Positions 4,706 to 23,052 of a stretch of DNA of 23,052 bases are shown one piece after another. Origin of the DNA: a virus. Each line of letters begins with the position of its first letter. Position 1 is the first letter of the stretch. Location: positions 1 to 23,052 of IMG/VR virus record IMGVR_UViG_3300046808_000965, one strand, 5' to 3'. Below the pieces are notes generated by a model. The model ran no database searches. It was given only the letters and a program-made list of their open reading frames with translations, and was not told where the DNA came from. The position numbers and the translations under genes are program-made.

Positions 4706-5326
4706 TCAGGCGGCTTTCAAGCCAGGGTATTTTGCGGCGAGTTCCGAGGTTTTCTGGAAGACTCCGAGGCGGAGGTTTTTCTTAAAGAAGTTCGTGCGGC
4801 CGCGCATGGCCGCGCGCAGGGCATCGACCACGCTAGGGGAGTAGGTGCGGGAGTTTGTGATCTCGATGTGGAAGGCGTTGCCCTCTTGCTTTTCGGAGCC
4901 TTGGGCATTCTCGGGGTAGTCGCCGCTTTTCGTCGTGGCCTTGGCAACATAGTTCGGAACGGAGATTTCGATGCCGAGCTTTTCGGCGATCTGCACCCAC
5001 GATTTTTTCGAGAGGCCACGGGCATCCTTTCGGCGCTTGATGGAGTTTTTGATCTGGAGCTGGAGGGCTTTCCAGATCGTGTCTGGATAGCGGTTTTTCA
5101 TGAAGTAGCGCTTGCCGTTCAGCGTGCGCACAGGCTTGGCGTTGACATTGGCCTCGATGAGCTTGACCTGAGCGGTGGCGGTTTTTTTCGCGGCGGCCTG
5201 GAGGATGGACTTGGTCTCGGCGCGGATGATTTCAGCAAACGAAAACCCTGTGATTTTCGACATCTCCCGCATGGCGCGGGAGAAGTCGCTGGTCACGACA
5301 TTGATGCTTTGGGATTTTTTTGCCAT
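4706..5326 (-). CDS. Putative tail completion or minor tail protein (206 aa)
   Basis: 206 residues, basic, with an alpha-helical N-terminus (SDFSRAMREMSKITGFSFAEIIRAETKSILQAAAKKT). This resembles the opening of tail-completion proteins of the HK97 gp10 type, though the match is not firm. The ATG at 5326 shares its first base with the final base of the upstream TAA (TAATG), so translation is coupled to the frameshifted chaperone. Its place between the chaperone pair and the tape measure is unusual, because in lambda-type phages the chaperone frameshift product is normally next to the tape measure. An alternative is a chaperone partner or tail-tube cap. Confidence 0.6.
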   Translation of the reverse strand: MAKKSQSINVVTSDFSRAMREMSKITGFSFAEIIRAETKSILQAAAKKTATAQVKLIEANVNAKPVRTLNGKRYFMKNRYPDTIWKALQLQIKNSIKRRKDARGLSKKSWVQIAEKLGIEISVPNYVAKATTKSGDYPENAQGSEKQEGNAFHIEITNSRTYSPSVVDALRAAMRGRTNFFKKNLRLGVFQKTSELAAKYPGLKAA

Positions 5327-5550
5327 TAGGTCAGTTTTTCAAATGCGGCATCTATGGCAGCGAGGGAGTCAAAATCCACCTTGCGGGAGTTGCGGGTCCA
5401 GGTGCGACGGCGGCCGTGGGCGGCGTCGTCGGCATGGATGATTTGGAGGCCTGCGGCGAAGGGGAGGTCTTCGAGGATTTCGCGGAAGCCCCAGCCGGTG
5501 ATTCGAGCGATGCGGTAAACATAGCCTGCTAGCCAGCCGGGGCTGTTTAG
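5326..5550 (-). CDS. Frameshift extension of the tail chaperone (T part of GT)
   Basis: The -1 frame relative to the short chaperone is open from the slippery site to TAA at 5326-5328 and adds 74 residues starting LNSPGWLAGYVYRIARITGW. The expected fusion with the 130-residue upstream part is about 204 residues. No good start codon lies at the beginning of this frame, so frameshifting is the natural way to express it. The WGFREILEDLP segment is like the T domains of other chaperones, which recruit the tube and tape measure. A short inverted repeat (CAGCC-CC-GGCTG) begins 4 bases after the heptamer. Confidence 0.8.
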   Translation of the reverse strand, partial: LNSPGWLAGYVYRIARITGWGFREILEDLPFAAGLQIIHADDAAHGRRRTWTRNSRKVDFDSLAAIDAAFEKLT

Positions 5551-5939
5551 TTTCCCGAGGCGGACTTTCCGCCTTGGGTCTCGGAGAAGCTGGCGAAATA
5601 CTCGTTGGTCCGCTCGAGGCAGAGCTTTTGGAGTTCGGCGATCTCGGAGGCGGTGGGGTTTTGTTTTTCCATCCAATCGTCGACGGCGATGGCGAAGCGG
5701 GAGAAGTCGTTGACCACGGAGCGCACGGAGGCTTTCGGCGCGCTGTGGATGAAGGCGAAGCCGCCGGATCGCCAGAGGATATCCATCTCGGGAGAGAGGA
5801 TTTTGTTTCGTTGCATCCAGGAGATTTCCAGCGCGGCGGTTGGTCGCATTTCCCATCGGGAGAGTTTTTGAGGTCCGCTGGTCATGGCTTGCTCGCGGAG
5901 GGCTTCGTCGTCGGTGAGGAGGTCGTTGGTATCTGTCAT
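5547..5939 (-). CDS. Tail assembly chaperone, short form (gpG-like)
   Basis: 130 residues, acidic N-terminus (MTDTNDLLTDDEALREQ), then a helical body, ending SETQGGKSASGN. It lies after the tail tube candidate and upstream of the tape measure, the usual place for the G component of the G/GT chaperone pair, which binds the tape measure during tail assembly. The last codons contain the slippery heptamer GGGAAAC just before TAA, so part of the ribosomes should shift to the -1 frame and make the longer product. There is no Shine-Dalgarno; the ATG is preceded by a C/A-rich leader. The assignment rests on position and the frameshift site rather than sequence similarity. Confidence 0.8.
   Translation of the reverse strand: MTDTNDLLTDDEALREQAMTSGPQKLSRWEMRPTAALEISWMQRNKILSPEMDILWRSGGFAFIHSAPKASVRSVVNDFSRFAIAVDDWMEKQNPTASEIAELQKLCLERTNEYFASFSETQGGKSASGN
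5550..5556 (-). other. Programmed -1 ribosomal frameshift site GGGAAAC
   Basis: On the minus strand the codons read TCG GGA AAC TAA, so the heptamer G GGA AAC is in the phase required for tandem -1 slippage. The zero-frame stop follows immediately and may promote slipping. The heptamer is the same class as the lambda G/T site (GGGAAAG). Seen directly; its use is inferred from the open -1 frame downstream. Confidence 0.85.
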
Positions 5940-19476: not shown

Positions 19477-20487
19477 TTATTTTTTGGTTTTGATTTGGCG
19501 CAGGGTGGTTATGGGTGACCCTGCTTTCACCGCTGATTCATCCACCTCCACGCCGGAGTCGGCGCAGAATTGGCGAAAGTTCTTGCCGCTCATCTTGCCG
19601 CCGAGGGCGAGGATGAGCGTTTCCTTGGAAACATTGGCCGCTGCCTTGGCGATGGCATCGGCTTCGACATAATCGCGGCCGGCCATGCTCGAGACCTTCC
19701 AGCCGGGGATTTCCTCCCCGTCGGAAAGCCGCGCCTTGAGGAGTTCGATCAACGGATCCGCGAGGTGCTTCTCCGCCGCTTTCCAGTTGGCGGCGAAGAC
19801 CGAAAGCTGAACCGGGTCCGCCGCGATCTCCGCGCGGATCTCGTCCAGCGCCCGCTCGCCCTTGACCAAAGCCAAAGCGCCCTCCGCCTGCCGCACGATC
19901 GCCGAGCACCCATTGAAATGGGCGCACCATTCGCAATACTCGCAGGGTGTCGGCTTTGCCGACGCGCTCGTCGCCTCCGAGACCCACCCCGCCGTGATGC
20001 GCTCCGCATCCTCTTTGGTGAACTCATAAGTGCGGCGTTGCTTTTGATCCACATACAGCACATGAGCCGTCCAGCGCTGTGCGAAATTGTCCTCCATGCA
20101 GGCCAGCGAGTAGGCAGCCATTTGCTCGCGGTAGTTGCGGATCTGGCCCGTCTTAATATCCGCCACCCAGCCGCGCGTGCGGCAAATCGCATCCGCCGTT
20201 CCCAGCTTCGAAAGCCCCGGCACCGCAAGGCCGAGAAATTCCTCCCGAGTCTCGACAGGGTAGCCCGCCGAGAGGTCGAGAAGTTGATTCCGGCCCCACT
20301 CTGACACCCGCTGATCCTCCGGAGTCAGTTGCTCATAAAGCTCATAGTCGCACTGCACCGCTCCACGGATCGCCGCGTCGAGGAGCGTGCCCCGCTGAGC
20401 CGCCGCCGAGGCCCCTGACGCCCCGACAAATGTCGGGCACGCCGCCAGCTTTGGCCCAGCGGAGGGTGAAAGCTCCCGCGCTTTCAC
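19477..20487 (-). CDS. PD-(D/E)XK nuclease with Fe-S cysteines (Cas4/RecB-like)
   Basis: 336 residues. The nuclease core has GTADAI (Asp99), WVADIKTGQ (Asp110, Lys112) and EQMAAYSLA (Gln122, Tyr126). The cysteines Cys17 and Cys182, 185, 188, 194 (PCEYCEWCAHFNGC) fit an iron-sulphur cluster as in Cas4 and AddB nucleases. The usual His in the N-terminal RG-T-H motif appears replaced (RGTLLDAAI). The C-terminal 130 residues are an extra domain. Start is GTG with GGAGG seven bases upstream, sharing GTGA with the ATPase stop. It likely resects DNA ends for the neighbouring annealing or recombinase proteins. Confidence 0.88.
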   Translation of the reverse strand: MKARELSPSAGPKLAACPTFVGASGASAAAQRGTLLDAAIRGAVQCDYELYEQLTPEDQRVSEWGRNQLLDLSAGYPVETREEFLGLAVPGLSKLGTADAICRTRGWVADIKTGQIRNYREQMAAYSLACMEDNFAQRWTAHVLYVDQKQRRTYEFTKEDAERITAGWVSEATSASAKPTPCEYCEWCAHFNGCSAIVRQAEGALALVKGERALDEIRAEIAADPVQLSVFAANWKAAEKHLADPLIELLKARLSDGEEIPGWKVSSMAGRDYVEADAIAKAAANVSKETLILALGGKMSGKNFRQFCADSGVEVDESAVKAGSPITTLRQIKTKK

Positions 20488-21997: not shown

Positions 21998-22146
21998 TAT
22001 TTGGCCCTCCGTTCAAAGACCACCGCGAAAGGCGTGACCTTAAATGTGCGCCAGAATTTCAGCCGCGCCTCGGCCGGCGTGCTGGCGTGGATATAATCGC
22101 CGAAGGGTCCAAAAACCCCGTTGGCGGTGCAGAGATACAGGTTCAT
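21997..22146 (-). CDS. 49-aa hypothetical protein
   Basis: The frame from ATG 22146 gives 49 residues beginning MNLYLCTANGVFGPFGDYIH and ending VTPFAVVFERRAK. It overlaps both neighbours (ATGA and TAATG), with AGGA near the start. Beta-strand, helix (STPAEARLKFWRTF), beta-strand order suggests a compact small domain. No family is recognised. It belongs to the early small-gene cluster. Confidence 0.6.
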   Translation of the reverse strand: MNLYLCTANGVFGPFGDYIHASTPAEARLKFWRTFKVTPFAVVFERRAK

Positions 22147-22373
22147 GGTTGTTTCCTACTGGTTGCTGTGTTGCGGCGATTGGCGCCACGGCCGATCCGG
22201 CCCATGAGCCACTCGCGAAAGCTGTGTCGGGAGATGTGCCAACCGCCGGTGCGCCCGAATGGCAGCGTCGCCAAAAACTCCCCTTGCCGAATGTGCGGAT
22301 AGAGACCGCGCTTGGTCAGCCCGCACTCTTGGCAGGCTTCTTCGATGCTCATGAACTCCTGCGAGAAGATCAT
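22143..22373 (-). CDS. Excisionase-like / MerR-type HTH protein
   Basis: 76 residues. MSIEEACQECGLTKRGLYPHIRQGEFLATLPFGRTGGWHISRHSFREWL has the order of winged HTH excisionases and phage helix-turn-helix-17 proteins: HTH helices, a short wing with R-G-W, and a closing helix. GGAGG lies eight bases before the ATG at 22373; an internal ATG at MSIEEA is an alternative. If it is an excisionase, a missing integrase should exist outside the window; alternatively it is a transcriptional regulator of the early operon. Confidence 0.75.
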   Translation of the reverse strand: MIFSQEFMSIEEACQECGLTKRGLYPHIRQGEFLATLPFGRTGGWHISRHSFREWLMGRIGRGANRRNTATSRKQP

Positions 22374-22549
22374 TTCGCGGCCTCCCGTTTGGCGGCCCGG
22401 CTTTCTTTAAGCGCCAGTTGCTCGATGGCATGCGCCACCACCCGACTCAGCGGCACTTTTACGCCGCCATTTTCAGCGCGGGTTTTCACATAATCCCAGA
22501 CCTCGGAAGGCAGGCTTATGGAGACCGCTTTGTGCTTCTTGTTTTGCAT
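22370..22549 (-). CDS. Ribbon-helix-helix repressor, leftward
   Basis: 59 residues from ATG 22549. HKAVSISLPSEVWDYVKTRAENGG is the RHH strand and first helix, followed by the VPLSRVVAHAIEQL second helix and a Lys/Ala-rich tail. A longer frame upstream runs into the operator-like repeats and is rejected. It is the first gene of the leftward block. The strand and helices match those of the divergent 22714 gene, so the two look like paralogues. Likely autoregulatory through the TTGCCAA sites ten bases upstream. Confidence 0.78.
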   Translation of the reverse strand: MQNKKHKAVSISLPSEVWDYVKTRAENGGVKVPLSRVVAHAIEQLALKESRAAKREAAK

Positions 22550-22558
22550 GCCCAGCAA

Positions 22559-22587
22559 CATTGCCAATCTTGCCAATGTTGGCAATG
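22559..22587. promoter_or_regulatory. Operator-like TTGCCAA array
   Basis: Perfect 9-bp arms CATTGCCAA (22559-22567) and TTGGCAATG (22579-22587) enclose a further TTGCCAA (22570-22576) that pairs with the second arm around TG. This gives two direct copies and one inverted copy of TTGCCAA just upstream of the leftward RHH gene. It would suit paired binding of RHH dimers. Confidence 0.7.
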
Positions 22588-22679
22588 CAATAAGCAAAAC
22601 ACCCCATCTCTAAATGTTATTTTTTTGTTGACATCCGCATGGGGACTAGGTTTGCGGGCGAAAAAATATTTTCACAATT

Positions 22680-22707
22680 TTGCCAACATTGACGACCGTG
22701 CTAAATT
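22680..22707 (+). promoter_or_regulatory. Candidate rightward promoter with operator half-site
   Basis: TTGCCA (22680-22685) and TAAATT (22702-22707) are 16 bases apart and point at the rightward RHH gene. TTGCCAACATTG here is the exact inverted copy of 12 bases at 22574-22585, so the -35 region overlaps an operator half-site. Transcription would start at or just before the ATG at 22714, giving an almost leaderless message. Confidence 0.45.
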
Positions 22708-22713
22708 CTATTC

Positions 22714-22980
22714 ATGAAAACGATCAAGACTCAGAATGTTTCCATTCCCGTGGAACTTCACGATTGGGTCACAAAAAAGATGGAAGAAACTAAGCTTTCA
22801 ACCCCATGGGCGAAGGCCACATTTTCCAGCATCGTGGAGCACGCATTGACCGAGCTTCGTAACAATGAGCAACAGGGAAAAGGCCAGCCGGATGTTGGTG
22901 TCGTGATGAGTCCAGCGTCCGGAACTTCCGTTTCTGGTCGCTCAACAGCTACGACGAAACCCTCCCTGAAGGCTGGGTAG
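22714..22980 (+). CDS. Ribbon-helix-helix regulator, rightward (possibly frameshifted)
   Basis: 88 residues as read, the only plus-strand gene accepted. Residues 6-50 (TQNVSIPVELHDWVTKKMEET, then FSSIVEHALTEL) match an RHH domain and align with the leftward RHH protein. After residue 56 the sequence turns low complexity (MSPASGTSVSGRSTATTKPS), unlike a real C-terminus. The codons there, CAG GGA AAA GGC, contain GGGAAAA, and the -1 frame from this point is open to the end of the window with normal codon use. So the gene is either disrupted, miscalled at a homopolymer, or uses a programmed -1 shift. Confidence 0.7.
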   Translation: MKTIKTQNVSIPVELHDWVTKKMEETKLSTPWAKATFSSIVEHALTELRNNEQQGKGQPDVGVVMSPASGTSVSGRSTATTKPSLKAG

Positions 22981-23052
22981 GGCAGATCCACGACCTCACG
23001 CAAGACAACCCTGCTCCTGTAATGCGCTGGCCCGATTTACTCGGGGGGGGGG
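22882..23052 (+). other. Open -1 frame continuing the rightward RHH gene (partial)
   Basis: After a -1 slip at GGGAAAA, the frame codes RPAGCWCRDESSVRNFRFWS and then NSYDETLPEGWVGQIHDL, continuing past VMRWPDLL to the window end without a stop. It has no start codon of its own. Codon choice is typical of the window (mostly C or G at third positions). I do not recognise the domain. Confidence 0.45.
23043..23052 (+). other. Terminal ten-G run
   Basis: The window stops in ten consecutive G residues. Poly-G at a contig end is typical of low-signal calls in two-colour sequencing, so these bases should not be trusted as biology. Confidence 0.7.

Follow-up and report, generated by a model that had tools for sequence, protein, structure and literature searches.

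Putative programmed -1 ribosomal frameshifting adds a conserved domain to a ribbon-helix-helix regulator of phages of Verrucomicrobia-type bacteria

The window analysed here is a whole IMG/VR virus record of 23,052 bases, and its ribbon-helix-helix (RHH) gene RHH2 very probably yields two proteins, RHH alone and RHH plus a further domain, by programmed -1 ribosomal frameshifting. This reading was obtained by comparing sequences, without expression or proteomic data. Most ribosomes would remain in the 0 frame as far as the TAG at 22978; their product, 88 residues long, would be an RHH DNA-binding protein whose tail is unstructured. Some ribosomes would slip one base back on G_GGA_AAA, with the Gly and Lys tRNAs re-pairing on GGG and AAA. 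The slipped product would then carry the same RHH unit followed by a conserved C-terminal domain of ~35-60 residues, with the predicted junction ...QQGKRPAGCWCR.... The fused frame, the shift site and its phase, the conserved 0-frame stop and the lack of an alternative start can be read directly from the aligned loci; slippage on the ribosome, and its rate, are inferred from conservation. In tailed phages, the known cases of programmed frameshifting are mainly in structural and assembly genes. If real, a frameshift conserved in protein, shift site and stop, and lying beside an integrase, would tie translational recoding to a lysogeny switch.

The RHH2 gene, its two reading frames and its relatives

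The features of the gene are as follows.

22714-22980, + strand: RHH2, 0-frame product of 88 residues (open reading frame list and AlphaFold; N-terminal domains of relatives match Pfam RHH_1 above the cut-off)
Residues 7-54 of RHH2: RHH-like unit, made of an extended stretch and helices at 13-29 and 37-54, followed by a disordered tail, residues 55-88
22875-22881, + strand: G_GGA_AAA slippery heptamer, in phase (X_XXY_YYZ)
22875-23052, + strand: -1 frame with the conserved C-terminal domain (GKRPAGCWCRDESSVRNFRFWSLNSYDETLPEGWVGQIHDLTQDNPAPVMRWPDLLGGG...), truncated by the window edge
22978-22980, + strand: 0-frame TAG stop, built from the -1-frame codons GTA and GGG, its A fixed in most relatives
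23043-23052, + strand: poly-G run ending the window; 8-17 G in many relatives, giving a poly-Gly end of the -1 product

The initial annotation had placed GGGAAAA in the exact 0-frame phase at residues 55-56 of the open reading frame 22714-22980, and this was confirmed (CAG GGA AAA GGC at 22875-22881). Its statement that the -1 frame runs open and startless to the window edge also held: the frame is open right after the TGA at 22866-22868 through the window end, and no ATG, GTG or TTG lies ahead of the conserved core. Since there is no start codon, the domain escapes ordinary gene calling. The contig is cut inside the poly-G run, before the gene is complete. L002, part of a 34.4-kb contig that is identical over 22714-23052 and 99.6% identical across 5.3 kb, shows how the -1 frame continues: it terminates there as ...DLLGGGGRG*, with its stop codon (TAA) 9-11 bases past the window end. 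The poly-G tract (5330-5347 in L002) is conserved near the -1 ORF end in many relatives and is interrupted in places, and its variable length changes the last residues of the -1 product. Many contigs stop at this tract; the homopolymer is real in relatives. Across the 5.3 kb, L002 shows 20 differences from the window, every one of them inside a 94-base stretch, 19720-19813, as if by recombination or mixed assembly.

Relatives were collected with the 0-frame protein, which found 8 viral loci, and with the -1-frame domain alone, which found 65 and then 80 viral-contig loci plus a few in Verrucomicrobia MAGs. After duplicates were removed, ~87 related loci from viral contigs and Verrucomicrobia MAGs were analysed. 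The fused-protein query found no relative in genome_contigs, and tBLASTn against named phages and plasmids gave nothing useful. The carriers of the RHH2-type gene are phages of Verrucomicrobia-type bacteria. The N-terminal parts of the loci formed 17 clusters, of which 16 were RHH-like and one was a remnant. At every locus with intact upstream sequence, the ~35-residue domain sits in the -1 frame of the upstream RHH-like gene. Since the upstream gene was absent from the domain query, the constant -1 phase is not an ascertainment effect. The loci share ancestry, so the counts of phase and heptamer are not independent.

The main alternative in the initial annotation was a base lost from the G/A run, that is, a sequencing or assembly error splitting one ordinary gene. 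GGGAAAA is indeed homopolymer-rich, and one relative, L009/L054, did lose one A from an A-run early in RHH2, which puts the RHH start out of frame with the RHH body; this copy is either broken or misassembled. However, no extra base was found in close relatives; in other contigs, at 51-100% identity, the gene is again divided over two frames with an unchanged phase, and only L009/L054 carries an additional indel, elsewhere in the gene. Dozens of contigs with the same arrangement, together with a 0-frame stop that is itself conserved via biased codon choice, refute this alternative, and we give it next to no chance.

Shift site and selection on the two frames

We then counted the XXXYYYZ heptamers from which a -1 slip can reach the domain. 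Across the 87 loci, 88 were in the slip phase, compared with 17 and 10 in the other phases, and at least one in-phase heptamer was present in 66/87 loci (15 and 9 for the other phases). The shift phase was the same in all intact loci. GGGAAAA, the most common in-phase heptamer, is kept in 15 of the 16 N-terminal RHH types, and GGGAAAG, GGGAAAC, GGGAAAT, AAAAAAA or CCCCCCT substitute for it in some lineages. The programmed -1 frameshift in an RHH regulator that had been proposed is therefore supported, having been refuted, as far as sequence alone can tell, neither by the frame of the relatives nor by the conservation of the heptamer. The remaining 21/87 loci lack a perfect in-phase heptamer, including the L150 cluster, an entire RHH type with none, and in most of the 21 the only candidate sites are Z_ZZN tetramers, A_AAG in several loci and A_AAA or C_CCC in others. 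A_AAG is a known minimal -1 site, and ribosomes in E. coli are very prone to shift on G_GGA_AAG (PMC5009743).

Transcriptional slippage, rather than ribosomal frameshifting, could also give the fused frame, as it does in some bacterial and IS genes (PMC5009743), and L048 has an 8-A run. Nevertheless, such slippage is efficient at runs of ~9 A or T (PMC5009743), while most loci have only 4 A, and the conserved feature is the phase of the heptamer, which is relevant to ribosomes. We regard transcriptional slippage as barely tenable.

The -1 ORF might instead be a gene in its own right, translated through non-canonical initiation or through reinitiation. Near-cognate codons occur in the relevant stretch at 55/87 loci, and AGGGAAAAGG is Shine-Dalgarno-like. 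Against this, an ATG, GTG or TTG is found in the stretch at only 12/87 loci, at unconserved positions, and none is found in the window; moreover, if the gene were separate, nothing would require it to keep one phase relative to 16 different RHH types. Independent initiation is accordingly held to be very improbable.

A stem lies downstream of the heptamer.

22888-22922, + strand: candidate 11-bp stem that begins 6 nt downstream of the heptamer (CCGGATGTTGG / CCAGCGTCCGG); no covariation support

The stem region in the window folded with a z of -2.35. Relatives retain 7-11 of the stem pairs, yet shuffled sequences pair almost equally, and covariation across the relatives gave no support. The RNAalifold consensus was weak and unlike the hand-drawn stem, and Rfam gave no match. 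The stem is thus a plausible candidate only for a stimulator of the shift.

Selection was assessed on a 25-codon ungapped core with nearest-neighbour pairs. In the -1 frame, 151 synonymous changes were counted against 76.4 expected (z 11.0), whereas the 0 frame gave 91 against 88.8 expected (z 0.3). Restricted to the overlap, the -1 frame still gave a z of 6.9. In group 2 alone, whose 12 sequences are too uniform, it gave 1.3-2.0. None of the reverse frames of the region exceeded a z of 1.6, so reverse-strand coding is unsupported. The synonymous excess in the -1 frame and its absence in the 0 frame show that the -1 frame encodes a protein under strong selection, and that the residues of the 0-frame tail are not selected. 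The tail had been described as low complexity with a stop at 22980, which was right in substance: residues 57-88 have a pLDDT below 50 and show no selection at the amino-acid level, and it is the stop codon that is selected.

The 0-frame TAG is formed from an xTA codon of the -1 frame and the G that follows it. Where domain codon 17 encodes V, I or L, it is xTA (GTA, ATA, CTA or TTA) in 34/36 unique sequences and in 48/55 of a larger set; the usage of xTA codons in ten long genes of the window is 2-4%. In lineages with Thr, Ala or Ser at codon 17, the 0-frame stop is mostly a TGA within DLT, and the leucine there is CTG (read CTG-AC) in 11/11; in sequences with an earlier 0-frame stop, CTG at this leucine occurs in 2/32. 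Termination of the short form inside the domain therefore appears, on codon choice, to be under selection. No other single observation argues as strongly for the importance of both products as the maintenance of the 0-frame stop by biased codon choice.

Another explanation is that the domain is not translated from the phage RHH gene but belongs to a host gene, whose 3' end the phage carries at attP and which integration would restore. The missing start codon, the conservation at the protein level and the adjacent integrase would all fit, as would two domain copies between ordinary chromosomal genes in a Chthoniobacter MAG. However, no host gene with the domain in frame was found either in genome_contigs or in 384 genomes of the class. 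The chromosomal copies are either RHH genes with an in-phase GGGAAAA (L087 and L088) or remnants (L079, and L081 with a decayed RHH end). Nor does a host-gene end predict the constant -1 phase, the fixed 0-frame stop or the conserved shift site, and we give it very little weight.

It is also conceivable that the frameshift is real but that its product matters merely by being made, through nascent-protein degradation or as a ribosome sink. This has been proposed, untested, for lambda cI (PMC5009743), and the function of the domain is unknown. The strong conservation of the domain at the amino-acid level argues instead for a folded or binding function, so a role through synthesis alone seems unlikely to us, and a functional RHH-plus-domain protein is preferred.

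Predicted protein products and known recoding systems

In the AlphaFold model of the 0-frame product, an extended stretch precedes two helices, at residues 13-29 and 37-54 (pLDDT ~80), and the tail is disordered from residue 55. Slippage at residues 55-56 would thus fall just past the RHH unit. RHH2 of the window had no Pfam match, and its monomer model had no significant PDB match; among its relatives, L154 and L166 pass the RHH_1 cut-off, and RHH1 of L088 passes those of both RHH_1 and RHH_5. The C-terminal domain (~35-60 residues) has the consensus CWC...R.FR.W..NS....LP.GW.G.IHDLT, and its model consists of one helix plus loops at a modest pLDDT of 71. Searches of the domain against Pfam, PHROGs and PDB sequences gave no usable match, and a fold search with the models of both the 0-frame product and the domain found nothing significant.

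The shift site of the lambda G/GT tail chaperone, G_GGA_AAG, is of the same kind as that of RHH2. As proposed for RHH2, lambda G/GT has a short 0-frame product and a rarer C-terminally extended product (PMC5009743). Unlike lambda G/GT, the RHH2 0-frame product is an RHH DNA-binding regulator beside an integrase, and the phage has a separate, likely frameshift of the tail-chaperone type.

5326-5939, - strand: tail-chaperone-like gene upstream of the tape measure, with an in-phase G_GGA_AAC (5550-5556) directly before the stop and an open -1 frame

This combination of G_GGA_AAC and an open -1 frame in the gene preceding the tape measure is the usual tail-chaperone layout and serves as an internal control; the gene likely holds a second, classical frameshift in the same phage.

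Regulators and DNA-binding proteins have been linked to frameshifting before. In IS elements, it fuses the DNA-binding OrfA product to a catalytic domain (PMC5009743). RHH2 differs from IS1/IS3 OrfA-OrfAB in being RHH-type, in gaining ~35-60 residues that are not a catalytic transposase core, and in belonging to a phage and not an IS. FseA, the excision activator of ICEMlSymR7A, is made by a +1 shift (PMC5009743). As in our reading of RHH2, a frameshift there makes a transcription regulator, and FseA controls the excision of a mobile element; however, the shift is +1, the protein family is another and FseA is an activator. The cro gene of Lactobacillus phage A2 is, as is inferred for RHH2, a lysis-lysogeny regulator gene with a -1 frameshift; the shift was reported for decoding in E. 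coli and seems to play no part in L. casei, the phage's own host (PMC5009743). Its shifted product is 12 aa shorter, without a conserved extra domain. The initial annotation had held that a phage repressor with two products would be new. Given the A2 cro, FseA and IS precedents, wholly new is too strong, since the mechanism is known; what stands as new is its inferred use here, by which a phage RHH regulator gains a conserved domain through frameshifting. No paper combining programmed ribosomal frameshifting with ribbon-helix-helix was found in the open literature, subscription papers being outside the search.

Gene neighbourhood and a possible switch

The region upstream of RHH2 contains the following features.

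22370-22549, - strand: RHH1, divergent partner RHH protein, encoded by the gene that opens the early leftward operon; starts with Met at 22549 or, in a possible longer form, with TTG at 22597
22143-22373, - strand: HTH_17 protein (excisionase/AlpA-like), gene 2 of the early operon (E 8.9e-8)
22556-22587, no strand: operator-like repeats (TTGCCAATGTTGGCAA palindrome) near the RHH1 start; no binding data
22680-22691, no strand: matching operator-like site TTGCCAACATTG just 5' of RHH2, overlapping the sole promoter-like match

A 12-base inverted repeat, CAATGTTGGCAA/TTGCCAACATTG, lies at both ends of the divergent intergenic region between RHH1 and RHH2. Wherever a viral locus extends far enough, an integrase adjoins the RHH2/domain gene; L002 has a convergent tyrosine integrase after the -1 frame (Phage_integrase E 1.2e-7). 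A divergent RHH-type gene was present in most loci inspected, and none was found at L019 in an ATG-only scan. RHH1 was closer to its own RHH2 than to the RHH2 of other phages (53.5 vs 35.6), and 0/20,000 permutations gave a value as high.

P22 Arc and Mnt are RHH phage repressors, and lambda CI and Cro are divergent regulators with operators between them. A CI/Cro-like layout, in which divergent paralogous regulators have repeats between them and one of them opens the early operon, is present here at the level of sequence. Like lambda CI/Cro, RHH1 and RHH2 are divergent paralogues with putative operators between, and the RHH fold inferred for them is that of P22 Arc/Mnt. Judged from this layout, RHH1 would occupy the Cro position and RHH2 the CI position. 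That RHH2 is a phage repressor is likewise inferred, and not demonstrated, from its divergent RHH partner and its integrase neighbour. We know of no conserved frameshift-encoded isoform for RHH phage repressors (Arc/Mnt) or for lambda CI/Cro.

We speculated that the two isoforms act as a lysis-lysogeny switch at the putative operators that separate RHH2 from the divergently transcribed paralogue RHH1, an inference that we favour only slightly. The short form would bind DNA, and the long form would add a contact, either by oligomerisation or by binding the integrase or a host factor. The shift rate would set the ratio of short to long isoform. A broader proposal, which remains tentative and falls somewhat short of an even chance, is that this temperate phage family holds a fixed dual-frame cassette joined to at least 16 RHH specificity heads, in which frameshifting sets the short:long repressor ratio, and thereby the lysis-lysogeny decision, independent of immunity specificity.

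Several flanks of the related loci were also recorded. In the L055-L074 group, the nearby integrase of several group 2 phages is encoded on the opposite strand, and the gene directly after the domain is small and lipoprotein-like. In a Chthoniobacter flavus MAG, the RHH/domain region survives as two chromosomal remnants, L079 (2237-2400) and L081 (1400-1680); genes for a transporter permease and an ilvD-like dehydratase lie beside them, and the two remnants have a 3' flank in common, GTAATTTT..AGTTTTTAACAAACAAA. In L088, from a host genome, and L133, on a 57-kb phage contig, a small gene (YHVEFFKTR.FSGTVD...EGWVL) lies 3' of the domain, and we presume that it resembles DUF4177-type proteins.
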